A stretch of DNA of 64,000 nucleotides from Ereboglobus luteus (lineage in GTDB: Bacteria > Verrucomicrobiota > Verrucomicrobiia > Opitutales > Opitutaceae): the NCBI RefSeq assembly GCF_003096195.1, contig NZ_CP023004.1, positions 3,390,501 to 3,454,500 of the forward strand, read 5' to 3'. The first letter of the stretch is position 1, and each line of letters opens with the position of its first letter. The translations under genes were made by a program, and so were the position numbers. The notes under the pieces were generated by a model. It did not search any database. It had not been told where the DNA came from and worked only from the letters and a program-made list of their open reading frames with translations. This document shows, one piece after another, positions 14,604-33,566 of this stretch.

Positions 14604-15590
14604 ATGATCCGTTCCCTCATATTCAGCGAAGGCAAGCTCGTGGGCCGCGACCTGGAGGTCGAGGCGCTCCGGCTTGTGCGCGCCGACAAGGGGCTTGTGA
14701 TCTGGGTTGATCTTGAGGACCCGACGGACGATGAAACCAAGGCCATCCTCGAGGGCGTCTTCCAGTTTCACCCGCTCGCAATCGAGGACTGCGTGGCGCC
14801 CAGCTCGCTTCCAAAAATCGAGGATTACGACGACTACTTCTTCCTGGTCGCGCACTGCGTCGATCCCACGCGTATTGAAAAATTCAATACAACCGAGATC
14901 AATCTCTTCCTCGGGCGCGACTTCATGGTCACGTTTCACCGCGCCAGGATGCACGTCGTCCAGTCGGTGCTTGAGCGTTGCGCCCGTTTTATCGGCGGCG
15001 TGATCGCGCGCGGCCCGGACCGGCTCGCGCACCTTTTGCTCGACGCGCTCATCGACAACTTCAAGCCGGTCACGGACGAGTTGCGCAACGAGCTCGACCT
15101 GATCGAGGAGAACGTTCTCTCCGAGGAAACGGACGGACGGCGCGCCACGACCCTCATCCCCAAGCTCATCGAGGTGCGTTCGGAGATAAACCATTTGCGC
15201 CAGATTATCCGGCCGCTGCGCGAGGTTGTCGGGCGCCTGACGATGGGCGGCAGCAAAAACATACGCGCCGCCACGCTGCCTTATTTCCGCGACCTTCGAG
15301 ACAACCTGATTCGCATTGATGAAACGGCCGCCACTTACGCCGACCAGCTGTTGATCTCGTTTGATCTCTACCTGAACAAATCGGACTTTCAGGCAAACGA
15401 AGGCATTAAGACGCTCACTGCCCTCACCGCGCTCACGCTCCCCGCGACGCTTGTCGGCACTTGGTATGGCATGAACTTTGAAAACATGCCCGAGCTGAAA
15501 ACGCCGTTTGGCTATCCAATCGCAATCGGCGTCACCCTGGTGATTACCGCCGTGATTTGGTTTTGGTGCAAACGCCGCCGCTGGATATGA
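14604..15590 (+). CDS. corA: CorA family magnesium/divalent cation transporter, copy 1
   Basis: 328 residues, inner membrane. It has a long cytoplasmic acidic/helical N-terminal domain and two C-terminal membrane helices joined at the signature 'YGMNF' (GMN) loop, followed by 'NMPELK' and a terminal 'KRRRWI'. The start is the ATG at 14604, which has GGAG a few bases upstream and aligns with the second copy ('MIRSLIF' against 'MITSLVY'). It is 29 bp after gcvH and may share its transcript. The ion is likely Mg2+, with Co2+ or Ni2+ possible. Confidence 0.9.
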   Translation: MIRSLIFSEGKLVGRDLEVEALRLVRADKGLVIWVDLEDPTDDETKAILEGVFQFHPLAIEDCVAPSSLPKIEDYDDYFFLVAHCVDPTRIEKFNTTEINLFLGRDFMVTFHRARMHVVQSVLERCARFIGGVIARGPDRLAHLLLDALIDNFKPVTDELRNELDLIEENVLSEETDGRRATTLIPKLIEVRSEINHLRQIIRPLREVVGRLTMGGSKNIRAATLPYFRDLRDNLIRIDETAATYADQLLISFDLYLNKSDFQANEGIKTLTALTALTLPATLVGTWYGMNFENMPELKTPFGYPIAIGVTLVITAVIWFWCKRRRWI

Positions 15591-22020: not shown

Positions 22021-23448
22021 TCATGGCGTTCGCCCGATATTGGCCAGGCTTCGGTCAACATCGCGCTCCCATTCGGTTATCTCGCGGGTTAGCCGTTCCA
22101 CAATCGCCGGCTCGGTTTTTGCCAGATTGCGAGTTTCCCCCGGGTCTTGGTCCAGCCTGAACAGCGCGGGCGCATTTTCCTTGGAAAGGTGGAGCTTCCA
22201 CGGTCCGGAACGCACGGCCCGCCGTCCGCGGAAACGCCAGAAAACCGACCGTTCGGGCAATGCATCTTCTTTTTGCAAGTGTTTCACCAAGCTGACTCCA
22301 TCAGGATGCAGGACCTTGGTTTCGGGCAGAGGCACACCCGCGAGCTCCAGCGCAGTCGGGACAATGTCCATGGTCATCGCCACTGCCGCACTCGTCCGGC
22401 CGGCGGGGATTTGTCCGGGCCAGCGGGCGATTGCAGGCACCCGATGCCCGCCTTCGAAAAGGGACATTTTGCCGCCTTGATATGCTCCATGGTTGGAAAT
22501 CTCCCCGCGATACCGCCCTTGATACTCAAGGTAACCGCCATTGTCGGAGGTAAAAATCACCAGCGTGTCACCTTCCAGTCCCAGCTGTCGCAGGGGGTCC
22601 AGTATTCGTCCGGTGCTGCGGTCCACATCGCCAATCATCTCCTGCACGACTTCGCGCAACTCCGGCCCGCCCACATGCGGCCCGAGCCGACTGTCGGCGG
22701 GATTGGTTATGCCGTAATAGCCTTTGCCCAGCTTGCGATGGGGCTCGTCGCTGGAGCGCATCCAGGGAAAATGGATGGCCGCGTGCGAAACAAAGAGAAA
22801 AAACGGACGGGCCTTGTTCCGTTGGATGAATTGAATGGAATAGTCGGTGATGAGGCGCGTGGTGTTGCCGGGCTGCTTCTCCGGCTTCAGCACTTCGTTT
22901 TCCCACCAATCGGGGAGGCCCGCGCGATTGATTTGGGCCGAGTAATCGCCTTCGCTGCAAATGAGCCCGCGGAATTCACCGAACCCGAAACGCACCGGAT
23001 TCTCGTCGGGATGATGTCCGAGATGCCATTTGCCAAACAGTCCTGTCTCATACCCGGCCGCGCGCAAATGCTGCGCCAGCGTGACTGTCTTCGCGGGCAA
23101 CCCATGCCGCTCCGCTGGAAATTCCATGATCGGCAATGCGGACTCAATGCCAACGCGCTGGGGATAGCGTCCCGTGAGAAATGCCGCGCGAGTCGGCGAG
23201 CACATCGGGCCGTTGGCATGAAAGTCGGTGAAACGCATTCCCTCGCGGGCCATTTTATCCAGGCGCGGTGTCGGCTTGCCGGGGTTTCCGTAGCAGCCGA
23301 GGTCGGCATAACCCAAGTCGTCCGCCAATATCACCACAATATTGGGCGGACGTTTGAGGGCAGGCGGGGAAGCGGCGCCGGCGGCCGAGGCGGCGCTTCC
23401 CGCCAATCCGGCGAGCGAGGCAATAATCAATCGGCGGCGGTGCGTCAT
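22021..23448 (-). CDS. Secreted arylsulfatase (sulfatase family S1)
   Basis: 475 residues. It would remove sulfate esters from a carbohydrate in the periplasm. The N-terminus has a twin-arginine-like/basic signal ('THRRRLIIASLAG', Ala-rich to about residue 26). Metal-binding aspartates are in 'ILADDLGYADLG'. The modification motif is C83-S-P-T-R with downstream 'LTGRYPQRVG', so the cysteine must become formylglycine; no maturase gene is in the window. It also has 'GKWHLG' and 'FTSDNGGYLEYQG'. It sits 8 bp after the TonB receptor and is almost certainly its co-transcribed partner. Confidence 0.93.
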   Translation of the reverse strand: MTHRRRLIIASLAGLAGSAASAAGAASPPALKRPPNIVVILADDLGYADLGCYGNPGKPTPRLDKMAREGMRFTDFHANGPMCSPTRAAFLTGRYPQRVGIESALPIMEFPAERHGLPAKTVTLAQHLRAAGYETGLFGKWHLGHHPDENPVRFGFGEFRGLICSEGDYSAQINRAGLPDWWENEVLKPEKQPGNTTRLITDYSIQFIQRNKARPFFLFVSHAAIHFPWMRSSDEPHRKLGKGYYGITNPADSRLGPHVGGPELREVVQEMIGDVDRSTGRILDPLRQLGLEGDTLVIFTSDNGGYLEYQGRYRGEISNHGAYQGGKMSLFEGGHRVPAIARWPGQIPAGRTSAAVAMTMDIVPTALELAGVPLPETKVLHPDGVSLVKHLQKEDALPERSVFWRFRGRRAVRSGPWKLHLSKENAPALFRLDQDPGETRNLAKTEPAIVERLTREITEWERDVDRSLANIGRTP

Positions 23449-23456
23449 TTGTTAAT

Positions 23457-26441
23457 TTAGAAACGCCCGCTGATGCCCATGTTCAGGCGCGCTCCATAGA
23501 CTTCGGTGACATAAGTGCGGGAGCGATCCCCCACATACCAATCGGGCGAATGATTAAAGGCATTCAGGTAATCCACAAAAAAGTTGAGCCTCGAGTTGAG
23601 CCGGTATTGGACGTTGAAATCCCAGGTCGGGTCGTCCGTCTTGTAGGTGCCTGCTGTTGCCGCCGCCGAGAAGCGGAAATAATAACTGCCCTTGAAGTGA
23701 TGGGTGGCACGGAGTGTGAGCTTGCCGATTTTATATACAATTCCGGCATTATAGGTGGTGGGCACAAATTCGACCAGCGGACTTTCCTCGCCCGCGGCAT
23801 TGGTGCCCGAAGTGTTGAGCCGGGTGTAGTTGGCCCAGAGTGTCAGGCCCTTGAACGGCTTCGGAAGGAAGTGAAGCGATTGATTATAATTAAGCTCCAG
23901 GCCGTCGATGCGCGCGTCTCCCATGTTGTCCCTGGTGGTGAAGGTAAAGCCCTCATAGCGTCCGTCGAACCCGTTGCCCGGACCTTCCCCGATGATGCGA
24001 TGGGTCGTGGCGATGAAATCGGTAATGTCCTTGCGAAAAACACCGGCGGAAATAACGCCGGCCGGCTCCAGGTAATACTCAATGCTAAGGTCGTAGTTTT
24101 TGCTGTATTGCGGCTTCAGACTTGGATTCGAGGAAACCACGGTGCCGTCATCATCGACCCCGCCCCGGTAGGTCACGGTTGTGTAGGGAATCAATTCCTT
24201 GATTTCCGGACGTCCGCACGAGGTCGAGTAACTGGCGCGCAGCACGAAATTGCGCACCACATTGTAGGTGACATGCACGCTCGGGAAAACCTTGGAGTAG
24301 CTTCCCCTTCGCTCAATTGTTGTTTGGTCGGGATTGTATGGATCGGAAAGCGAGCCCCGCGCCTTCACGCGCGTTTCCTCGGCGCGCACTCCGGCCAGAA
24401 TGGTAAGCGGTCCGATACTTGAAGTGGCCTGAATGTATCCGGCGTTAACCAGTTCCCGCGATTCGCCGGGAATCGCCTTTTTTGAAACCGTGGTGCCGTT
24501 TTCGGAAAACTGCTCCGGATGTGTCTTGAAGTGGCTCCGAAACCGATCGAAATCGAGTTGATCCATTCCCTCGTAATGCCCGTCAAAAAGGCCGTAGCTT
24601 TTCGAGCCTTTCAGAAAACCGGACAGGTTGTCGTCATTGATGCTGGTGTCGGGATTGACGCCCTGCACTCCGTCAACGCCGACGTAATACCATTTTGGCC
24701 GATAGGTGTTGAGCATCCAGCGGGTTTGGTGGCGCATGTCGAAACCGCTCTTTAGTTTCACCGGATTATTAAATACACGCAGTGTTTTTTCCGCATCAAT
24801 GCGATAGTTTGTGATGTCGTCCTTGGTGCGGTCGGGTTGCTCAATCCACTCGGCCTTGTATAAATTAAAATTGCTGCCGTATGCGATGGAGGGACCTATG
24901 GTTTGCGTATACTTGGGGCGGTCGCGGTCTGTTGTGTCGATCGCCATGCCGATGCCGGGCAACGTTGCGTTAAGGGCAAGGTAATTGTTGGTTGCCCGCC
25001 CGGGATTGTAGGAAAACTCAGTGGTCACAAGACCATCCGTGAATTTTTTCTCACCGCCAAGGGCCGCCTTGAATGTTCTTTGGTAACGCCGCTCTTCCGC
25101 CGCGCACGATGTGAAGGTGGCGTTTAACAATTCCGTGAAGGTCCCGGTGTATCCGGGGGCGATGCCGGCTGTCTGATTACTCGCGGTCCGAGGGGTTTTT
25201 CCTGCTTCAATGTCGGCGCGACTGACTTTGTTATAATCGGCAACCCGGCGGCTGCCGGTTGCGTTTGTGTTAAAGCTCAGGCGTTCAGTATGGAAATTAT
25301 AATAGGTTCCGGCGAGCTTCACCCAAGTGCGCAGCGTTTTGTTGAAACGGTATTCAAAGTTGGCGCTTATGCCGCCGCGTCTCCTCGTGTTGGTGTCGTC
25401 AAGATAGCGCGCGCGACTGTTGATGGGCTGGCCTTTCACGAGATACGCGCCTTGCACACGGTCGCGATGGCTCACCGTCTCGGTATAGCTCGCCGAAAAG
25501 GCGATACCGAGCCGCCTGCCGAAAAAGGTGTCCATATAGCTGATCGCGGCAGTCGGCGTAACCGGTGTGCTGGAGCGATAGGTGTTGAGGTTCGCGCCCG
25601 CGCGATAATCGATGACCCGGTTGCGATAATCGAAGGCGGATTTTGTCACGAGATTCACCGAGCCGCCCAATGAGTCCGCGGGCATGTCGGGACGGTTTCC
25701 TTTTGTGATTTCAATTTCCTTGATTGAGTCCGAGGGAATCTGGTCGACAAGCATCGCGCGGTCGCCTTGTGGCATCACACCGATGGTCGGCGAGGATGAG
25801 CGCGTGCCGTCAAGTGTCACCGAATTCATATCTGGAGGCGTGCCGCGCACACTGACGCCAATGACATCGCCCGCTTCGATATTTACCGCGAGGCCGGGTA
25901 GGTTTTGGAGGAAATTTCCCACATTGCCGTCGGCCACATTTCCGTAGGCATCCATTGAAATCACGCTGACGACATTCTCCGCGTTGCGCTGCCGTGTGAT
26001 TGACGCCGCGTTTCCCTCGCGCTCGCCGGTGACGACGATTTTTTCCAAGCGCACAATCTCGTCCGCGTCCTTTAGCTCGATTGGCAAATCCACCATCGCC
26101 CCCGCAGTCACATTAACCGTCTTCGACCAAGGCATGAGGCCCGTGTAATAAACCTCGATCACGTGCGTGCCCTCGGGAATCCGATAAAATGAAAACTCTC
26201 CCTCTCGCGAGGTTGTGGTTCGCAGATTCAGCGCCCGGACGCTGACTGTCGCGCCCTCAAGATACGCGCCGGTCGCCTCGTTGGAAACTCGGCCCGTCAT
26301 GGTGCCACTGCCCGAGCCGGCCGGCTGTGCCGGGATGCGCGGCAGTAGAACAAATAATATTGCAAAAAGAGTCAGCGCCGCGCGGGCCGCGGACAAAGAG
26401 AATATAGACGGTATTGGCGACTGTGGGTGCGGGGATTTCAT
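23457..26441 (-). CDS. TonB-dependent receptor with carboxypeptidase-like N-domain
   Basis: 994 residues, outer membrane. It has a signal peptide (about 18-42), then a CarboxypepD_reg-like fold at 45-125 ('MTGRVSNEATGAYLEGATVSVRAL'), then the plug ('IVVTGEREGNAASI', 'NVGNFLQNLPGLAVN', 'ISVRG..PDMNSVTLDG' type). The rest is a long barrel ending in phenylalanine (MGISGRF). The plug resembles the TonB-Xanth-Caul group that imports oligosaccharides. The ATG at 26441 is chosen because it begins the signal peptide; the frame is open upstream through non-coding promoter DNA. The sulfatase gene follows, and the FCD-AraC regulator gene is divergent. Confidence 0.93.
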   Translation of the reverse strand: MKSPHPQSPIPSIFSLSAARAALTLFAILFVLLPRIPAQPAGSGSGTMTGRVSNEATGAYLEGATVSVRALNLRTTTSREGEFSFYRIPEGTHVIEVYYTGLMPWSKTVNVTAGAMVDLPIELKDADEIVRLEKIVVTGEREGNAASITRQRNAENVVSVISMDAYGNVADGNVGNFLQNLPGLAVNIEAGDVIGVSVRGTPPDMNSVTLDGTRSSSPTIGVMPQGDRAMLVDQIPSDSIKEIEITKGNRPDMPADSLGGSVNLVTKSAFDYRNRVIDYRAGANLNTYRSSTPVTPTAAISYMDTFFGRRLGIAFSASYTETVSHRDRVQGAYLVKGQPINSRARYLDDTNTRRRGGISANFEYRFNKTLRTWVKLAGTYYNFHTERLSFNTNATGSRRVADYNKVSRADIEAGKTPRTASNQTAGIAPGYTGTFTELLNATFTSCAAEERRYQRTFKAALGGEKKFTDGLVTTEFSYNPGRATNNYLALNATLPGIGMAIDTTDRDRPKYTQTIGPSIAYGSNFNLYKAEWIEQPDRTKDDITNYRIDAEKTLRVFNNPVKLKSGFDMRHQTRWMLNTYRPKWYYVGVDGVQGVNPDTSINDDNLSGFLKGSKSYGLFDGHYEGMDQLDFDRFRSHFKTHPEQFSENGTTVSKKAIPGESRELVNAGYIQATSSIGPLTILAGVRAEETRVKARGSLSDPYNPDQTTIERRGSYSKVFPSVHVTYNVVRNFVLRASYSTSCGRPEIKELIPYTTVTYRGGVDDDGTVVSSNPSLKPQYSKNYDLSIEYYLEPAGVISAGVFRKDITDFIATTHRIIGEGPGNGFDGRYEGFTFTTRDNMGDARIDGLELNYNQSLHFLPKPFKGLTLWANYTRLNTSGTNAAGEESPLVEFVPTTYNAGIVYKIGKLTLRATHHFKGSYYFRFSAAATAGTYKTDDPTWDFNVQYRLNSRLNFFVDYLNAFNHSPDWYVGDRSRTYVTEVYGARLNMGISGRF

Positions 26442-26546
26442 GGTAAGAATCGGGTTTTGGGAGGGGGATTTGATTGCCGGGCGTTGAATCGATTTGCCTA
26501 GTTCGGTAATTACGCTTGTTTTTATCCAGCATTTGATTTTTATTTT

Positions 26547-26616
26547 CAAGCAGTGACAAACGTCCGAATATAGAATGCCCAGCCCCGCATATATTATTGT
26601 TTGATTTCGCATATTT
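26547..26616. promoter_or_regulatory. Shared 70-bp upstream element, copy A
   Basis: This lies in the 208-bp gap between the TonB receptor and the divergent FCD-AraC gene, starting 105 nt from the receptor's ATG. It aligns without gaps to 31063-31132, with 48 of 70 identical and 24 of 30 in the core that begins GCATA and ends GATTTCGCATATTT. A GAATCGAT 45 nt from the start codon is shared as well. It is probably an operator and promoter region. Confidence 0.7.
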
Positions 26617-26649: not shown

Positions 26650-27450
26650 ATGACAGACGACGAACTTCGCAGACTCTCATCGCTCCGATCCCTGATCGAG
26701 GGCTTCGGCTCGCGCTGTGCCGCGGTGCAACTGGCGGGCAAGCACGAGCAGATCGACGCATTGCATGAAATTGCGAAACGCCTGAACAAGGCGGCGCGCA
26801 AGCGTGATTACGAGGGCTTCCGCAATGCGGACGCGCAATTGCACGAAACAATAATGGAGGCAGCCGGCGTTCCCTTTTTGCGCGAAGTCTGGAAAATTGT
26901 GTGGAACGGGCTCTCCGAATTTCACGAGCGCGGCTTCAAGGAATATGTCACCGACCCGCGCACGCTCATTGGCGAACATGAGTATTTGCTCGAAACAATC
27001 GCCCGCAGCGATGCCGCCGCCGCCGAGGATGCGGCGCGCTGCCATGCCGAGGCCAACTGGGCGCGGTTGGCGGCGCGCAAGCAAAAAACCAGCAAGGGCA
27101 CCGAGCCGTTTCATTTCGCGGAGGCGCACATAGCCGCGCATTTGCATTGCCCGCTGCGCTTGGAGGAGGTTGCGGCAAAAATCGCCTTCACCAGCCCGGG
27201 AAATCTCTCCCGTTTGTTCAGGCAGCATTACGGTCTCAGCTTCAAGGCGCATTTGCAAAAATTGCGCATGGCAAAAGCAGCGGAACTGCTTGCATCGACC
27301 GGCCTTCCGGTCGCGACAATCGCCCGGCGCGTGGGATATCGTGATGTGTCGCGTTTCGCGCAGCATTTCCGCAGGCATTATAAAATGCTGCCCCGGGAAT
27401 GGCGAAGCACGACGGCGGACGGGCGCGCGCAAGGAAACACGGTATTCTGA
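26650..27450 (+). CDS. FCD-AraC fusion transcriptional regulator
   Basis: 266 residues with an unusual architecture. Residues 1-145 look like an FCD ligand-binding domain, normally the C-terminal half of FadR-type GntR regulators. The usual metal ligands are present: D61 and H65 in 'DAQLHETI', H110 in 'GEHEYL' and H132 in 'CHAEAN'. There is no GntR winged helix in front. Residues 155-255 are an AraC/XylS DNA-binding domain ('LEEVAAKIAFTSPGNLSRLF' and 'GYRDVSRFAQHFRRHY'). It probably senses a small acid, perhaps a sugar acid, and controls the divergent receptor-sulfatase operon. The ATG at 26650 is the first in frame. Confidence 0.82.
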   Translation: MTDDELRRLSSLRSLIEGFGSRCAAVQLAGKHEQIDALHEIAKRLNKAARKRDYEGFRNADAQLHETIMEAAGVPFLREVWKIVWNGLSEFHERGFKEYVTDPRTLIGEHEYLLETIARSDAAAAEDAARCHAEANWARLAARKQKTSKGTEPFHFAEAHIAAHLHCPLRLEEVAAKIAFTSPGNLSRLFRQHYGLSFKAHLQKLRMAKAAELLASTGLPVATIARRVGYRDVSRFAQHFRRHYKMLPREWRSTTADGRAQGNTVF

Positions 27451-27541: not shown

Positions 27542-28444
27542 TCAACGCGGGATGAATTTCTGCACACGCCAGTTTACTATCTCGGCGATGTATATATTTC
27601 CGCTTGGAGCCACGGCGATCTGGTGCGCATAACCGAATTCTCCCGGCATTTTTCCAGGAACCCCGAATGTGCCTTCGAGTTTGCCGTCGAGTGTCAATTT
27701 CACAACGCGGTTGGCGTGTCCGTCGCACATGAAGAGGTAATCGTCGGGAGTTATGCACATGCCCCACGGCGAGCCGTATTGATCCCATTGTGTTATATAT
27801 TCGCCTTCGCGTGTGAAAACTTGAATGCGATAGTTTTCGCGGTCGCCTATATAAACGCGCCCCGTGCGATCCACCACGACGGAATGCGGCATGTCGAACT
27901 CGCCGGGGCCGGTTCCCTTGCGGCCCCACGCATTTATGAAGCGCCCCTCTTTTGTATAACGCACCACGCGCGAGTTTCCGTAACCATCGGTCACGTAGAT
28001 GTCGCCGTGCGGACCAAATCCGACATCGGTGGGCTGGTTGAAATTTTCCTCGGTTTCACCGGGGGTTTGCTTGCGCCCGAGCACCATGCGAACTTGGCCG
28101 GCGGGATCAATTTTAACAATCATGTGGCCGCCGCCATCGACCGCCCAGATGTTGCCCTCGGGGTCAAGTTTGACACTGTGCGGCCAGACAAACATGCGGT
28201 TGCCCCACGCGCGTCGCAAAGTGCCGTCGGGCGCAAACTCCATGAGGGGATTTTCCCCGCGGTGAAAAACATAAGCGTGCTCGCGGGAGTCGACGGCGAT
28301 CCCCGGGGTTTCCTCGAAAGTGGTGTTGTCGGGAAGTCTTGGCCACAACGGATCCGGTTTATAATTCAGGCGGGGCCATTTGCTGCCGTCGACGATTCGC
28401 GCGTTTTGATAAATTTGACCAATTGCTGTTGTCGTTTCGCTCAT
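27542..28444 (-). CDS. NHL-repeat beta-propeller protein (PAL/SMP-30-like)
   Basis: 300 residues with no signal peptide, so probably cytoplasmic. Five or six NHL-type blades carry recurring 'G.I.V.D..G.....V' strands: 'TPGIAVDSREHAYVF', 'PHSVKLDPEGNIWAVDGGG', 'PTDVGFGPHGDIYVTDGYGN', 'PHSVVVDRTGRVYIGDREN' and 'AHQIAVAPSGNIYIAEIVN'. The closest named fold is peptidyl-alpha-hydroxyglycine amidating lyase or SMP-30/gluconolactonase-like. In this setting a lactonase or sugar-binding role is plausible but unproven. It is the last gene of the sialidase-MFS-NHL operon, 44 bp after the MFS gene. Confidence 0.8.
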   Translation of the reverse strand: MSETTTAIGQIYQNARIVDGSKWPRLNYKPDPLWPRLPDNTTFEETPGIAVDSREHAYVFHRGENPLMEFAPDGTLRRAWGNRMFVWPHSVKLDPEGNIWAVDGGGHMIVKIDPAGQVRMVLGRKQTPGETEENFNQPTDVGFGPHGDIYVTDGYGNSRVVRYTKEGRFINAWGRKGTGPGEFDMPHSVVVDRTGRVYIGDRENYRIQVFTREGEYITQWDQYGSPWGMCITPDDYLFMCDGHANRVVKLTLDGKLEGTFGVPGKMPGEFGYAHQIAVAPSGNIYIAEIVNWRVQKFIPR

Positions 28445-28488: not shown

Positions 28489-29862
28489 TTAATGGGTTGT
28501 GATCTCATGGCGCGCCACGCGCGTAACTATGTCGCGTTTTACAAAAACCAGGCCCGCGAGAATCAAAAGAACCGCGCCGACGAGATAAACAACCGAGCCG
28601 AACGCGATCGCCTCGCTCATGTTTGCCACCGGATCGGCGTGGCGGCCGTATTTTGTGGCCAGCCCGACCGCAAGCGGGCCGAGCGCGCCGCCACCCCAGC
28701 CGACCATGTTCATCAGTCCCGCGGCGCTGGCGCGGGCTCGTGGCTCGACCACATCGTAAACGGATGCGAAAACATTCGAGTCATAAAAACCCTTGCACAT
28801 GCCGAAGCACGCCATCGCAACGAGGAGCAGCGTGACATTGTTTGTCAGCCCGACAAGCCCCACAAAAACAATCCCGCAGACAAGCCCGGTTGCCTGCACC
28901 AGCATGCGCCCGCCGGGATGTCGCGCCGCCCACCGATCCGCAAGAATGCCGGCGAATGGCACGCTTATCGCGCTTGCCAGATGGATGAACACACTGCCTG
29001 AAAGGCCGGCGTTTGTCAGTCGGAAGTGAAACTTTTCAACCAAGAAATAGGGCGTCCATGTGAGGAAAATTGTCGCGACAAAATTCGCCGCCATGAATCC
29101 GCCCAGAAGCAGCCACACGGTGGGTTTGCGCAATATAATCCTGGCCGTTTCGAACACGGTTGGCGGAGTCTCGTCAACCGCGGCCTGCGCTGGTTGCGGC
29201 TGCTCCGGCTGCCGGTCTTTTTCAGCTTTTAATGTTTCGGCTTCCTCGCGTTCCGCCGCACCGCGCGCGCGGTCATGCAGGAAGCGATAGAGCACGAGCG
29301 CGAGCAGCATGCCCGCCGCGCCGAACAGATAAAATCCCCAGCGCCAGCCGTGGTGTTCGGCGAACCACGCGCCGAGCCAGCCACCGCCAATGGTGCCGGC
29401 GTAAACGCTCGACTGGTGCAGCGAGAACGCGCGCGACCGCGTCTTCCGGTTGTGATAGTCGCCCATCAGTGACATGGCCGATGGAAAATAAAACGTTTCG
29501 CCGACTCCCTCGAGCGCGCGCACCGTGACAAAATGCCAGAGCTTGCTGCACCAGCCGGTCATCACCGTGATTGCGCTCCAGAACAGGCACCCGCCGAGAA
29601 TGAGGTGCTTGCGTGAAACGCGATCGGCAATGAATCCGGCAAACGGCGAGCCGAATGCATACACCCACATGAACGCCGACCCAATCAAGCCGAGCTGCAC
29701 CGCATCGAAGCCGAATTCTGTTTTGAGCGCCGGAAAAACGGCGTAGATCGCCTGGCGATCCGCGTAGTTAAAAAAACAAATGCACCAAAACATCGCCACC
29801 ACGGCCCATTTATAATTCGGGCCGACGACACGTTGGGGTTTGCTTGGTTTTTCAGGGGACAT
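28489..29862 (-). CDS. MFS transporter (anion:cation symporter type), operon B
   Basis: 457 residues with twelve likely membrane helices. The first loop carries 'FFNYADRQAIYAVFP', and the loop after helix 2 has 'GFIADRVSRKHLI', the MFS A-motif. A charged cytoplasmic loop near residue 200 ('REEAETLKAEKDRQPEQPQ') separates the halves. Relatives carry hexuronates, other sugar acids or organic anions. It lies 38 bp after the sialidase-like gene and is likely the inner-membrane importer for that enzyme's product. Confidence 0.88.
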   Translation of the reverse strand: MSPEKPSKPQRVVGPNYKWAVVAMFWCICFFNYADRQAIYAVFPALKTEFGFDAVQLGLIGSAFMWVYAFGSPFAGFIADRVSRKHLILGGCLFWSAITVMTGWCSKLWHFVTVRALEGVGETFYFPSAMSLMGDYHNRKTRSRAFSLHQSSVYAGTIGGGWLGAWFAEHHGWRWGFYLFGAAGMLLALVLYRFLHDRARGAAEREEAETLKAEKDRQPEQPQPAQAAVDETPPTVFETARIILRKPTVWLLLGGFMAANFVATIFLTWTPYFLVEKFHFRLTNAGLSGSVFIHLASAISVPFAGILADRWAARHPGGRMLVQATGLVCGIVFVGLVGLTNNVTLLLVAMACFGMCKGFYDSNVFASVYDVVEPRARASAAGLMNMVGWGGGALGPLAVGLATKYGRHADPVANMSEAIAFGSVVYLVGAVLLILAGLVFVKRDIVTRVARHEITTH

Positions 29863-29900: not shown

Positions 29901-30953
29901 TTATTTGCGTTCGAGCACCACATGTTTTATGCGCGCGCGGTTCCACGTGTAGGTGATATGCACGCGTCCGTCCTGTGCCTGGATGATCGCGGGATAGGCG
30001 TAACCGTTGCGCACGGGGACATTCTCAAGTGTGATTGCGCGCTCCCATGCCTCTCCGTCCATGGAGTAATCGACGACGAGCGGACACCGCGCGCCCCATT
30101 TCGATTTGTCCGAGGCGACTCGCGGATTATACACAAGCAGCATGCCGCCTTCCCTCAGGGCAATCGCATCAATGCCGGAGTTTATCGATGCGATGCCGGT
30201 GCCGGAAAGGGGCGTCCAAGTCTTGCCTCCGTCACGCGACCACGTGCGCGATATTTCACGGTTCGCACTGCGCGAAAGCGCCATGAGTGAGCCGTCCGGT
30301 TGGATTAAAATAGTTGGTTGGATCGAGCGGAATTTTTTCGGGTCGGCGACATCATCGCTCTTTTTCCAATCGACGAGCGAGTCATCGGTTCGCTCAAAAC
30401 AGATTGCCCAATCGTTCTTGTTGTATTCCCGCGCGCTCGGGCAAAGCAGCGTGCCGTCCTTGAGGCGCACCGGCTTGTTTTTGACAGGCCCCACCAGATT
30501 TTTCGGAAGGCGCGAGCGATTTCCCCATGTTGCGCCGCCGTCCCTCGAAACCAGCAACTCACCCCACCAATCCGTTGGCGAGGGGCCGACTTTGAAGAAC
30601 AAAATAACGCGCCCGTCTGCCGCCCGGTAAAGAACCGGATTCCAAGTCGGGTGACGTTTGCCGTCGGATTGCACGCCGTTGGCAACCGAAACGCCTGGTG
30701 TCCATGCGCCGTTTTCATAGCGGGACACCCATATCTCCACGTCATCATGTCCCTCTTTGCTGCCGCCAAACCAAGTGGCGATGAATTTGCCGGGCGCAAT
30801 TTCCACGATTGAGGACGAGTGCACCTCGGCCACGGGCGGCGCCGGTTCAATGAAACCACTCTTGACGATCTCCCATCGCGGAGCGGCGCATGCGGCGGAG
30901 AGCATCGCGATGCAATAAAAGGCGGCAAGCCGGAAGGTTTTTAACGATGTCAT
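29901..30953 (-). CDS. Sialidase-superfamily exo-glycosidase (BNR/Asp-box)
   Basis: 350 residues with an N-terminal signal ('FYCIAMLSAACAAP'). Asp-boxes of form SxDxGxTW occur at residues 136-143 (SRDGGATW) and 239-246 (SRDGGKTW). The N-terminal pattern 'EVHSSSIVEIAPGKFIATWFGGSKEGHDDVEIW' (several strands) is typical of the bacterial sialidase-like family near GH33. True sialidase specificity is uncertain, since relatives in polysaccharide loci act on other acidic sugars. The ATG at 30953 is chosen to begin the signal. It is the first gene of operon B, preceded by the shared 70-bp element. Confidence 0.83.
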   Translation of the reverse strand: MTSLKTFRLAAFYCIAMLSAACAAPRWEIVKSGFIEPAPPVAEVHSSSIVEIAPGKFIATWFGGSKEGHDDVEIWVSRYENGAWTPGVSVANGVQSDGKRHPTWNPVLYRAADGRVILFFKVGPSPTDWWGELLVSRDGGATWGNRSRLPKNLVGPVKNKPVRLKDGTLLCPSAREYNKNDWAICFERTDDSLVDWKKSDDVADPKKFRSIQPTILIQPDGSLMALSRSANREISRTWSRDGGKTWTPLSGTGIASINSGIDAIALREGGMLLVYNPRVASDKSKWGARCPLVVDYSMDGEAWERAITLENVPVRNGYAYPAIIQAQDGRVHITYTWNRARIKHVVLERK

Positions 30954-31318
30954 GGAAGGGTGCCTGTGAGTTTTGGGTTTAATTATGCAATCTGCCCGCG
31001 AATCGATCTGACATGATTTCACGATCATTAATCATGCTTATTCAAAAAGAATCCGACTGTTGCAAGCAGCGACAGGCACCAAGACCGAGAATGCTTTTCC
31101 GCGCATAAATTGATGTTCGATTTCACATATTCGCCACACCCTTGGTCGGGACAAACATCCTGTTTTGTTTGAGATAAAACATAGCCGCAATGTGTAAACT
31201 CGATCACCGCGAGCGCCCTGACGATGGCATCGTCTTTGTCATGTGCCGAGGCAATACGCTGTCTTGAGTCCATGGTTTTGCGCTGCCTAGATGCGGGCGA
31301 AACACACGGCGGCCGGCC
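30954..31318. other. Gene-free promoter interval of operon B
   Basis: These 365 bp hold no recognisable gene; an 81-codon minus-strand frame here covers the regulatory element and has no family features. Besides the 70-bp element it contains a TGTTTT/AAAACA inverted repeat with a 9-nt spacer at 31161-31181. The iclR stop codon lies at the right edge. Confidence 0.6.
31063..31132. promoter_or_regulatory. Shared 70-bp upstream element, copy B
   Basis: The partner of 26547-26616, located 109 nt before the sialidase-like gene's start codon, almost the same distance as copy A. A matching GAATCGAT lies 47 nt from the start. The conserved core here reads GCATAAATT then GATTTCACATATTC. Confidence 0.7.
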
Positions 31319-32095
31319 TTACCGTTTCATGGCCAGGATTCGTTCCAGTCGCGCCGCGAGCTTGAGCACGGATTGTTCGAGTTCGGCTTGGTCCCGATGG
31401 ATATAAACGTCGTGGCGCAGCAATAGCGCCACCGCGAGGCGCGGCGGATTCACAAGCGGCTCGCGCACGATGGCGGCAATGGACACATGGTCCTTGCTGC
31501 TCTCGCGGATATTCCATGCAAAACCCTTTTCACGCGCCTGCCGCAGCTGCGCGTAGAAGCGCTCGGGCGAAAGATTGGTATGGGGCGTGGTCGCCTCGTC
31601 CCCCTCGCGGGGCGCGTATTTGGGCCACTCGGACTCGGGCATTTGCGCAACGAGAACTTTTCCCGGCGACGATGAATGAATCAGGCTGTTTTGCCCGAGG
31701 CGCATGGTGTTGCCCTCGTCCCCGGCCGCGCAGACGACATAGGCGTAACGTCCGCCGAGCATGTCGACATACACGCTCGCATCGAGCGCCGCGGCGGTTT
31801 TGCGCAGCTCGGCGTCAAGGCGCATATTGTGGGCGAAGTGCGCGGCCACTTCATGCACAAACTCAAAGATGCGCGCATCCACGCCATAGCGATAATTGCG
31901 CGGGTTTTGTTGAAGAAAACCGATTTGGCAAAGCGTCTTGAGCAACCGGTGCAGGGACGACTTTGGCATGCCGAGCTCATTGGCGATCTGCGTGACGCCA
32001 AGCGCGTAGCCTCGTTGAAGCAAGAGGCGGACAACCGCTATGCCTTGCGTCAATGGTGTCGCTGTTCGTTCGTGCCGGGGTGGGGACTGGCTCAT
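31319..32095 (-). CDS. IclR family transcriptional regulator
   Basis: 258 residues. The N-terminal winged helix (about 10-75) has 'LGVTQIANELGMPKSSLHRLLKTL' across the recognition helix, followed by 'GFLQQNPRNYRYG'. The C-terminal IclR effector domain has 'SVYVDMLGGRYAYVVC' and 'SSSPGKVLVAQMPE'. Regulators of this family usually sense a sugar acid or aromatic acid. It is divergent from the FAD oxidoreductase-GH65-pgmB run, with a 133-bp gap that holds a suitable palindrome. The ATG at 32095 is chosen; 13 further codons are open upstream. Confidence 0.9.
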   Translation of the reverse strand: MSQSPPRHERTATPLTQGIAVVRLLLQRGYALGVTQIANELGMPKSSLHRLLKTLCQIGFLQQNPRNYRYGVDARIFEFVHEVAAHFAHNMRLDAELRKTAAALDASVYVDMLGGRYAYVVCAAGDEGNTMRLGQNSLIHSSSPGKVLVAQMPESEWPKYAPREGDEATTPHTNLSPERFYAQLRQAREKGFAWNIRESSKDHVSIAAIVREPLVNPPRLAVALLLRHDVYIHRDQAELEQSVLKLAARLERILAMKR

Positions 32096-32148
32096 CTTGG
32101 CACTAGAGAAAGTGCTTCGCCGGATGGCGGGCAATCTTTATCCTTCCG

Positions 32149-32162
32149 TTCCATTGGTGGAA
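32149..32162. promoter_or_regulatory. Candidate IclR operator
   Basis: TTCCA-TTGG-TGGAA is a perfect 5-bp inverted repeat with a 4-bp centre in the divergent gap between iclR and the FAD oxidoreductase. IclR-family sites often contain TGGAA/TTCCA half-sites, usually in the opposite orientation, so this is a candidate only. Confidence 0.4.
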
Positions 32163-32228
32163 TCCATCCGCGCGCCAACGGCGGTCCGTGCTCGTTGTCA
32201 TTCGAAAAAGCGCCCCATATCTGCGGGC

Positions 32229-33566
32229 ATGGAATCCCAACCCTGTGATTTTACCACCCCGTGCCTTGTTGTTGGCGGAGGCCCCGCCGGTTATGGCGCG
32301 GCGCTCGCCGCCGCGCGAAACGGCTGCAAGGTCATGCTCGTCGAGCGCCACGGTTTTCTCGGAGGCATGGGGGCCGCGGCGAATCTCAGTTGCTACATCA
32401 ACTACCGCAGCGGCGAGGAGGATTTGAGCGAGGCGGCATACCGCGAGCTCATCGGGCAGCTGAGGGCCTCCGGGCTTTCGTATCCCGTGCGCTATGCACA
32501 CACAGATTACATCGATCCCGAATTCACAAAGGTGGTGATGGAAAAAACACTCATCGGCGCGGGCGTGACGCTGTTGTATCATAGCTTGTTTGAGCGCGCC
32601 GCGCGCGCGGCGGACGGAGGCTGGTTGGTCGAGTTCGTCGCGAAAAACGCGCGCATCCGCGTGCGCGCCGATTATGTGATCGACGCCACCGGTGACGCGG
32701 ATGTGTGCGCCTCCGCCGGGGCGGCGATGACACACGGGCGCAAGAGCGACGGGCGCGCGCAACCCATGTCGATGGTCACGCAACTTTCCGGTTTTGATCC
32801 CGGGGCCTGGGAGCGCGCGGGCGAGCCCATCGAGGCCGGGCGTTATGCGGTGAAATGCGATTGCTTCGCCGATCTCATCGCCCGGGCGCGCGCCGAGGGT
32901 GAGTGGACAATTCCACGCGAAAACATTGCCATGCTCTGGGCAGCCCCCGGCGATCCGACTTCTGTGACCATCAACGGCACGCGCATCAACGGGCTGAGCG
33001 CGTGCGACCCGCTTGATGTCACGCGCGCGGAGATCGAGGGCCGCCGTCAGGCGGACGAACTGGCGCGGTTTTTCAAAAAATACGTGCCCGGTTTTGAGCG
33101 CTCGCATTTGTCCCGCACCGGACCGCAAATCGGCGTGCGCGAGAGCCGGCGCATCACCGGGCGCGCCTTGCTCACCGAGGATGATGTGCGCGAAAGCCGA
33201 CATCCCGATGATTCCATTACACGCTGCGCCTATCCGATCGATGTGCACAGCCCGGACAGCGCCTCCACCCAGTTTGAATCGATACCGGGCAAGCATTCCT
33301 ACGGCATACCGTGGGGTTGCCTGCTGCCCGCCAGTCTCGAAAACATGGCCGCCGCCGGGCGCTGCATCAGCGCGACACATGAGGCCGCGGGCAGTTTTCG
33401 CGTCATGCCCACCTGCATGGGGCTTGGCGAGGCGGCCGGTTCGGGGGTGGCAATCGCAGCGGAGCGCGGAGCCGTTTTGTCATCAGTGCCGGCGCAGGCA
33501 GTCCGTGCCATGATGGACGGGAATCTGCGGCGCCGCGAGGCATCCGAATCCATAATCAACAAATAA
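32229..33566 (+). CDS. FAD-dependent oxidoreductase (FAD_oxidored type)
   Basis: 445 residues, cytoplasmic. A Rossmann dinucleotide site lies close to the N-terminus ('CLVVGGGPAGYGAALAAARNG', a GxGxxG pattern) and 'VMLVERHGFLGGMG' ends the second strand with the ribose-binding Glu. Family features continue with 'VIDATGDADVCASAGAAM', 'IGVRESRRITG' and a C-terminal 'AGSFRVMPTCMGLGEAAG'. PF12831-type oxidoreductases often sit in polysaccharide loci of Verrucomicrobiota and Planctomycetota; the substrate is usually unknown. The ATG at 32229 is chosen because upstream in-frame codons run into the iclR gene. GH65 follows after 5 bp. Confidence 0.87.
   Translation: MESQPCDFTTPCLVVGGGPAGYGAALAAARNGCKVMLVERHGFLGGMGAAANLSCYINYRSGEEDLSEAAYRELIGQLRASGLSYPVRYAHTDYIDPEFTKVVMEKTLIGAGVTLLYHSLFERAARAADGGWLVEFVAKNARIRVRADYVIDATGDADVCASAGAAMTHGRKSDGRAQPMSMVTQLSGFDPGAWERAGEPIEAGRYAVKCDCFADLIARARAEGEWTIPRENIAMLWAAPGDPTSVTINGTRINGLSACDPLDVTRAEIEGRRQADELARFFKKYVPGFERSHLSRTGPQIGVRESRRITGRALLTEDDVRESRHPDDSITRCAYPIDVHSPDSASTQFESIPGKHSYGIPWGCLLPASLENMAAAGRCISATHEAAGSFRVMPTCMGLGEAAGSGVAIAAERGAVLSSVPAQAVRAMMDGNLRRREASESIINK

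Follow-up and report, generated by a model that had tools for sequence, protein, structure and literature searches.

A candidate regulator of Ereboglobus luteus and other Verrucomicrobiota that joins an FCD sensor domain to an AraC-type DNA-binding domain

NanR, DgoR, DhdR and LldR are metal-type FCD regulators of the GntR superfamily, which carry a GntR winged helix and sense sugar acids or hydroxy acids beside their own catabolic genes. The AraC/XylS family (AraC, RhaS, MelR, AdpA) has a DNA-binding domain with two helix-turn-helix motifs, which most often activates and which uses direct repeats with half-sites spaced by some two helical turns (21 bp in AraC). AraC itself carries a cupin-type arabinose domain and forms DNA loops. 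E. coli XylR, in which a LacI/GalR-type ligand domain is reportedly joined to an AraC DNA-binding domain (PDB 4fe4/4fe7), is a precedent in kind for a C-terminal AraC domain with an N-terminal sensor borrowed from another regulator family. The protein described here, P0001 of Ereboglobus luteus, has the FCD fold of the first group and the two-HTH domain of the second: its C-terminal AraC-type domain stands in for the winged helix of NanR and its relatives, and its FCD domain takes the place of the cupin of AraC. The resemblance to XylR is one of design and not of membership, given that the sensor of XylR is of the LacI/GalR type whereas that of P0001 is a helical FCD domain whose ligand is probably an acid. 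A text search of open-licence PMC papers for FCD together with AraC returned, in the parts of the papers it covers, no description of such a protein.

We analysed a window of 64,000 nucleotides of Ereboglobus luteus (NZ_CP023004.1, positions 3,390,501-3,454,500); positions below are window positions unless another locus or contig is named. A sequence-only reading of this window had described an FCD ligand domain followed by an AraC helix-turn-helix, with no GntR winged helix, and had suggested profile searches and a structure prediction as checks. Both agree with it.

26650..27450, plus strand: FCD-AraC regulator gene (P0001), an open reading frame with an ATG start, 266 amino acids
26680..27051, plus strand: FCD ligand-binding domain, residues 11-134 (Pfam)
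27175..27408, plus strand: AraC-type double helix-turn-helix, HTH_18, residues 176-253 (Pfam and structure match)

In Pfam, the first domain matches FCD (PF07729) with 70.5 bits against a cut-off of 24.3 (E 2.3e-19) and the second matches HTH_18 (PF12833) with 86.9 bits against a cut-off of 33.6 (E 1.1e-24). The HTH_AraC profile also matches P0001, and the GntR winged helix (PF00392) gives no match at E<=1. The same architecture is found in relatives: FCD is above its curated cut-off in all five further family members scanned, and PF00392 is absent from these five at E<=0.001. In an AlphaFold model (input alignment of 14; pLDDT 87.1, pTM 0.83) the N-terminal half folds as FCD, with residues 1-146 matching the FCD structures of DhdR (Z 21.1), PdhR (18.9), DgoR (18.9), NanR 6on4 (16.7) and TM0439 (16.0), and residues 151-262 match the AraC DNA-binding domains of AdpA 3w6v (Z 16.3) and AraT (16.1). 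A Foldseek run on the model supports domains and structure, and NanR aligned across profile positions 11-140 in a PDB profile search. We rejected a hidden upstream GntR domain: all 14 aligned members start at the FCD domain, 13 of them with a methionine there, and P0002 with its translation begun one codon ahead of the ATG. P0001 is an AraC-family protein by its DNA-binding domain and an FCD protein by its sensor, and it is not a GntR protein because the defining winged helix is absent.

At least 18 full-length FCD-AraC members occur in 15 Verrucomicrobiota genomes. A profile of three members recovered at least 12 full-length proteins in nine of 252 genomes of the bacterial family, all with 323 bits or more, and after these and the G122 fragment described below the next match reached 71 bits and covered the HTH only, among the best 10 candidates scored per genome. 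At least five of 387 genomes drawn from the phylum have full-length matches (best six candidates per genome), both counts being lower bounds. A profile scan of genome contigs adds L084 (Chthoniobacteraceae) and L085. A single-sequence scan of the same kind with P0001 found no relative, whereas the alignment-based scan found relatives; the latter reaches near relatives only, and the same fusion may also occur further afield. Among plasmids, none of the 330 records matched by tblastn covers 80% of the query in one place. A fragment of 62 residues lies at a contig edge of G122; it is excluded from the 18 members, while its locus is included in the neighbour survey and its site in the training sites described below. 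The 4.17-Mb single-contig genome of E. luteus has just two FCD domains, both of them in FCD-AraC proteins; the paralogue, at C1:2804079, is 56% identical to P0001. FCD genes are patchy in the genus: G001 has two FCD matches and no full-length FCD-AraC protein, and G002 and G003 have no FCD match.

In a tree of FCD domains the 18 members form one side of a branch with support 100/100, against 29 other FCD domains of the family genomes (one of 30 proteins, L070 with 13.9 bits, was dropped by a 15-bit cut). The order and partner of the two domains, which the first reading had called unusual, are indeed so in these genomes, where all ten contrast FCD proteins of Opitutaceae that were scanned have the GntR winged helix first and FCD second. 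The family is monophyletic and rare, and the simplest reading is one fusion event followed by inheritance and perhaps transfer. Within it, P0002, P0003, L158, L159 and L166 form a paralogue subclade (support 99/98).

The genes around the regulator are as follows. Pfam bears out the receptor and sulfatase genes that had been placed divergent from it.

22021..23448, minus strand: sulfatase behind the receptor, predicted target (Pfam)
23457..26441, minus strand: TonB-dependent receptor, divergent from the regulator, predicted target (Pfam)
27542..28444, minus strand: NHL-repeat protein, predicted target (Pfam)
28489..29862, minus strand: MFS transporter, predicted target (Pfam)
29901..31028, minus strand: BNR_2 (sialidase-like propeller) protein, predicted target (Pfam)
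31319..32134, minus strand: IclR-family regulator adjoining element copy 2 (HTH_IclR, IclR_C)

The BNR_2, MFS and sulfatase genes of the window point to no clear substrate, a DHDPS aldolase is absent from this locus, and a promoter scan gave no clear promoter for the regulator gene. BNR_2 matches number at least 18 in the 4.17-Mb genome and up to at least 72 in further FCD-AraC genomes.

The intergenic region between regulator and TonB receptor holds an element of which a second copy lies upstream of the BNR_2 gene.

26544..26615, plus strand: whole shared element, copy 1, 50/72 identical to copy 2
26575..26613, plus strand: predicted operator copy 1, TonB/regulator intergenic, half-sites 26575-26591 and 26597-26613, period 22 bp
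31060..31131, plus strand: whole shared element, copy 2, 50/72 identical to copy 1
31091..31129, plus strand: predicted operator copy 2, some 60 bp before the start of BNR_2; half-sites at 31091-31107 and 31113-31129

The sharing already claimed from the letters alone is real: the copies have an ungapped score of 28, while none of 200 shuffled pairs (first-order Markov samples, here and in the site tests) scored above 15. Copy 2 was first spotted by eye and then tested against these shuffles; two BLAST searches, one with the intergenic region in the window and one with a piece of that region in the genome, missed it because the copies have only short exact words in common. The element holds a tandem direct repeat with a 17-bp half-site of approximately TGTTCGATTTCGCATA and a period of 22 bp. 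Such a predicted site is unlike those of metal-type FCD-GntR regulators and resembles the direct repeats of AraC/XylS proteins. Both copies read in the same direction, and in both cases the target genes lie leftward on the opposite strand. The first recognised rightward gene past copy 2 starts only at about 32040, and therefore the BNR_2-MFS-NHL genes are the natural target of copy 2. As listed, the rightward FAD_oxidored reading frame (32040-33566) overlaps at its start with the divergent IclR gene; since its domain begins only at residue 75, translation probably starts further downstream.

Upstream regions of relatives contain two half-sites ending in approximately GCATA, exactly 22 bp apart, the second of which ends 8-9 nt before the regulator ATG in G105, G108, G110, G121, G122, L084 and L085; in related loci the tandem repeat adjoins the regulator or an aldolase gene. 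A position weight matrix (PWM) from five sites of another genus (g6) scores the window copies at 30.6 and 27.8 bits, with the next match in the 64 kb at 14.7; the 139 control loci, 1.03 Mb in all, reach no more than 18.1 bits. In G123 (L161) the matrix places a site of 33.3 bits between aldolase and receptor genes, away from the regulator. Among 14 held-out loci it gives no convincing site at seven (the L020 paralogue, L051, L158, L166, L175, L176 and L177), only 16.0 bits at L160 and 19.6 bits at L174. A second match in L085 (20.3 bits at 15556), off the regulator and above the control maximum, is probably due to chance.

A second model (R1) was built from sequence only, using 10 sites and no window sequence. 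In the 4.17-Mb genome its best match is copy 2 (22.3 bits, E 5.6e-4) and its second is copy 1 (17.8 bits, E 0.016), followed by a third of 11.9 bits (E 1.25) and no others below E 1, among the best 150 of 1852 candidates. Across the 252 family genomes (best 26 candidates per genome) nine matches reach 22 bits or more, all at FCD-AraC loci; eight of these nine, and ten of eleven in a companion scan, had been used for training and so match by construction, and the one that was held out is window copy 2. Outside FCD-AraC genomes the maximum is 19.2 bits on the same candidates, and four genomes without a full-length FCD-AraC protein have matches of 17.1-19.2 bits, near or above copy 1, so that copy 1 by itself is within the noise of other genomes. 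The site is conserved and present in two copies in this genome. The pairing of regulator and element, proposed from the window, is thus backed by independent genomes, in that a model free of window sequence puts both predicted operators at the top of their own genome.

Variation in the operator follows the paralogue subclade, in which sites have mostly diverged: L159 retains the 22-bp tandem (19.5 bits with the g6 PWM), and similar repeats in P0002 and L166 are seen by eye only. In this subclade a leucine replaces arginine 235 of the second recognition helix, a change that could account for the lost GCATA part. A third half-site lies near the divergent genes at -136 to -138 in L162, L163, L164, L165, L167 and L084 and at -114 in L085, about 90 bp from the tandem pair (66 bp in L085). 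Four g6 loci (L162, L163, L164 and L167) share a second conserved element, an inverted repeat CAAGC-N13-(A/G)CTTG located 76 bp before the regulator ATG, with the third half-site on one side and the tandem operator on the other; both window copies retain only its left arm, CAAGCAG. The inverted repeat may be the site of another regulator or part of a promoter.

We propose, with a probability of roughly 0.75, that P0001 is a chimeric one-component regulator in which an FCD acid sensor directs AraC domains to two sites of 22-bp period, controlling uptake and degradation genes and its own promoter. The N-terminal FCD domain would dimerise and would hold a metal ion together with the carboxylate group of its ligand, a sugar acid or an organic acid of a related kind, and the dimer would position the C-terminal AraC domains head-to-tail on the tandem of 17-bp half-sites, 22 bp apart. 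The regulator would occupy one site between its own gene and the TonB receptor-sulfatase genes and a second before the BNR_2-MFS-NHL genes, and the two sites would join both gene groups into one small regulon. In this way the supply of the acid would be coupled to the genes for its uptake and degradation, with the regulator's own promoter also under control.

The least certain part of the proposal is the sign of regulation. We give about an even chance to ligand-dependent activation of the leftward operons combined with autorepression, in preference to pure repression. A pure repressor released by the acid, as most FCD-GntR proteins are, is nevertheless a serious contender, somewhat short of even odds. 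A downstream half-site as close to the start codon as in the seven loci named above would block transcription. Moreover, the third half-site could support a repression loop with the tandem pair, whose arrangement would allow one by analogy with Atu1419, an FCD tetramer that loops DNA in repression according to PMC7797058; a literature search for direct repeats plus looping found no paper. On the other hand, the distance of copy 2 from the BNR_2 start also fits an activator site, and AraC-type DNA-binding domains are mostly activators.

The proposed acid sensing rests on the FCD pocket and on the genes that recur beside the regulator. The four metal ligands that the sequence-only reading had picked out are present, and they align with those of NanR.

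26830-26832, 26842-26844, 26977-26979 and 27043-27045, plus strand: metal ligands D61, H65, H110 and H132 (alignment with NanR)
26686-26688, plus strand: R13, aligned with NanR Arg128

Asp172, His176, His222 and His244, which align to D61, H65, H110 and H132, are the zinc ligands of E. coli NanR, and Arg128 holds the ligand carboxylate, as given in PMC8012715. P0001 thus has the D-x3-H...H...H metal-site residues of NanR and its carboxylate arginine. D61, H65, H110, H132, R13 and E17 show no variation across the 14 aligned members, and in the remaining four of the 18 the metal ligands are readable by eye. That P0001 binds a carboxylic acid through the metal is a fair prediction, because the zinc ligands and Arg128 of NanR align to its residues. 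The NanR contacts to Neu5Ac at Asn165, Arg203, His214, Ser218 and Gln221 correspond to Y54, H92, P103, L106 and E109, and Asn215 falls on a gap. We rejected a NanR-like sialic acid sensor, as the sugar-contact residues besides R13 mostly differ, and we therefore limit the claim to the class of acid.

Neighbours were counted by tblastn within 8 kb of 19 loci (the 18 members and the G122 fragment), several of them near contig ends. A DHDPS- or HpcH-family aldolase is found at 13 of the 19, BNR_2 at 11, an SBF organic-anion transporter at eight and a TonB receptor at eight. In G105, G108, G110, G121, G122 and L085 the gene directly next to the regulator, and divergent from it, encodes the DHDPS-type aldolase. 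DHDPS occurs within 5 kb of seven of 13 regulators against about 0.15 expected (from 63 matches over 10 genomes that total about 59 Mb in rounded sizes), and SBF within 8 kb of eight of 19 regulators against about 0.2 expected (from 53 matches in about 90 Mb), counts that are not independent because several loci come from one genus (g6). We rejected the notion that AraC genes in general have such neighbours: the same queries at 58 AraC-HTH-only loci gave one ALDH match and none for the other families. Since these 58 loci are mostly from other taxa, the whole-genome counts are the better control. Aligned with NanA, the aldolases keep its Schiff-base lysine and its tyrosine; they fall below every NCBIfam equivalog cut-off, so we do not call them NanA or DapA, and NCBIfam assigned no family to two BNR_2 proteins. 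The G013 locus has an MFS gene and a KDG-kinase-like gene, the latter scoring under the cut-off of its family. At the paralogue locus (L020, 1100-8850) BNR_2, an HpcH/HpaI-type aldolase, SBF and a TonB receptor lie divergent from the second FCD-AraC gene, with no clear operator copy by the g6 PWM. A sugar acid is the likely ligand predicted for P0001, because the neighbours include TonB receptors, BNR_2, SBF transporters and pyruvate-type aldolases.

The FCD half could alternatively act as a dimerisation scaffold or metal sensor only, with no organic acid sensed. The sugar-specific residues of NanR are not kept, yet the invariance of the metal ligands and the carboxylate-binding arginine and the recurrence of pyruvate-type aldolases and organic-anion transporters beside the gene make this unlikely. 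Weaker still is the idea that the IclR protein binds the shared element and FCD-AraC controls something else: its gene adjoins copy 2 and encodes a genuine IclR protein, but tblastn finds IclR at the window locus alone and at none of the 18 other FCD-AraC loci while related loci have the tandem site, and the element is a direct repeat with a 22-bp period, as expected for AraC-type binding, where IclR proteins usually have palindromic operators, so that we consider it very improbable.

For the family as a whole, we put at around even odds that it is a distinct set of Verrucomicrobiota transcription factors, born of one fusion in which an FCD sensor exchanged its GntR winged helix for an AraC domain. 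On this reading its members would act as AraC-type regulators at tandem repeats, in several loci with a third half-site for looping, and would be dedicated to the import of sugar acids freed from sulfated or sialylated glycans and to their aldol cleavage. If this is true, an acid-sensing repressor module was turned into an AraC-type regulator, and the FCD sensor, familiar from GntR repressors, can operate DNA-binding machinery of an entirely different kind, with another operator geometry. The family would then serve as a natural test of where in a regulator ligand sensing resides and where the regulatory sign is set. The predicted two-site regulon and ligand class make the proposal testable, and would offer a handle on the control of glycan breakdown in Verrucomicrobiota.
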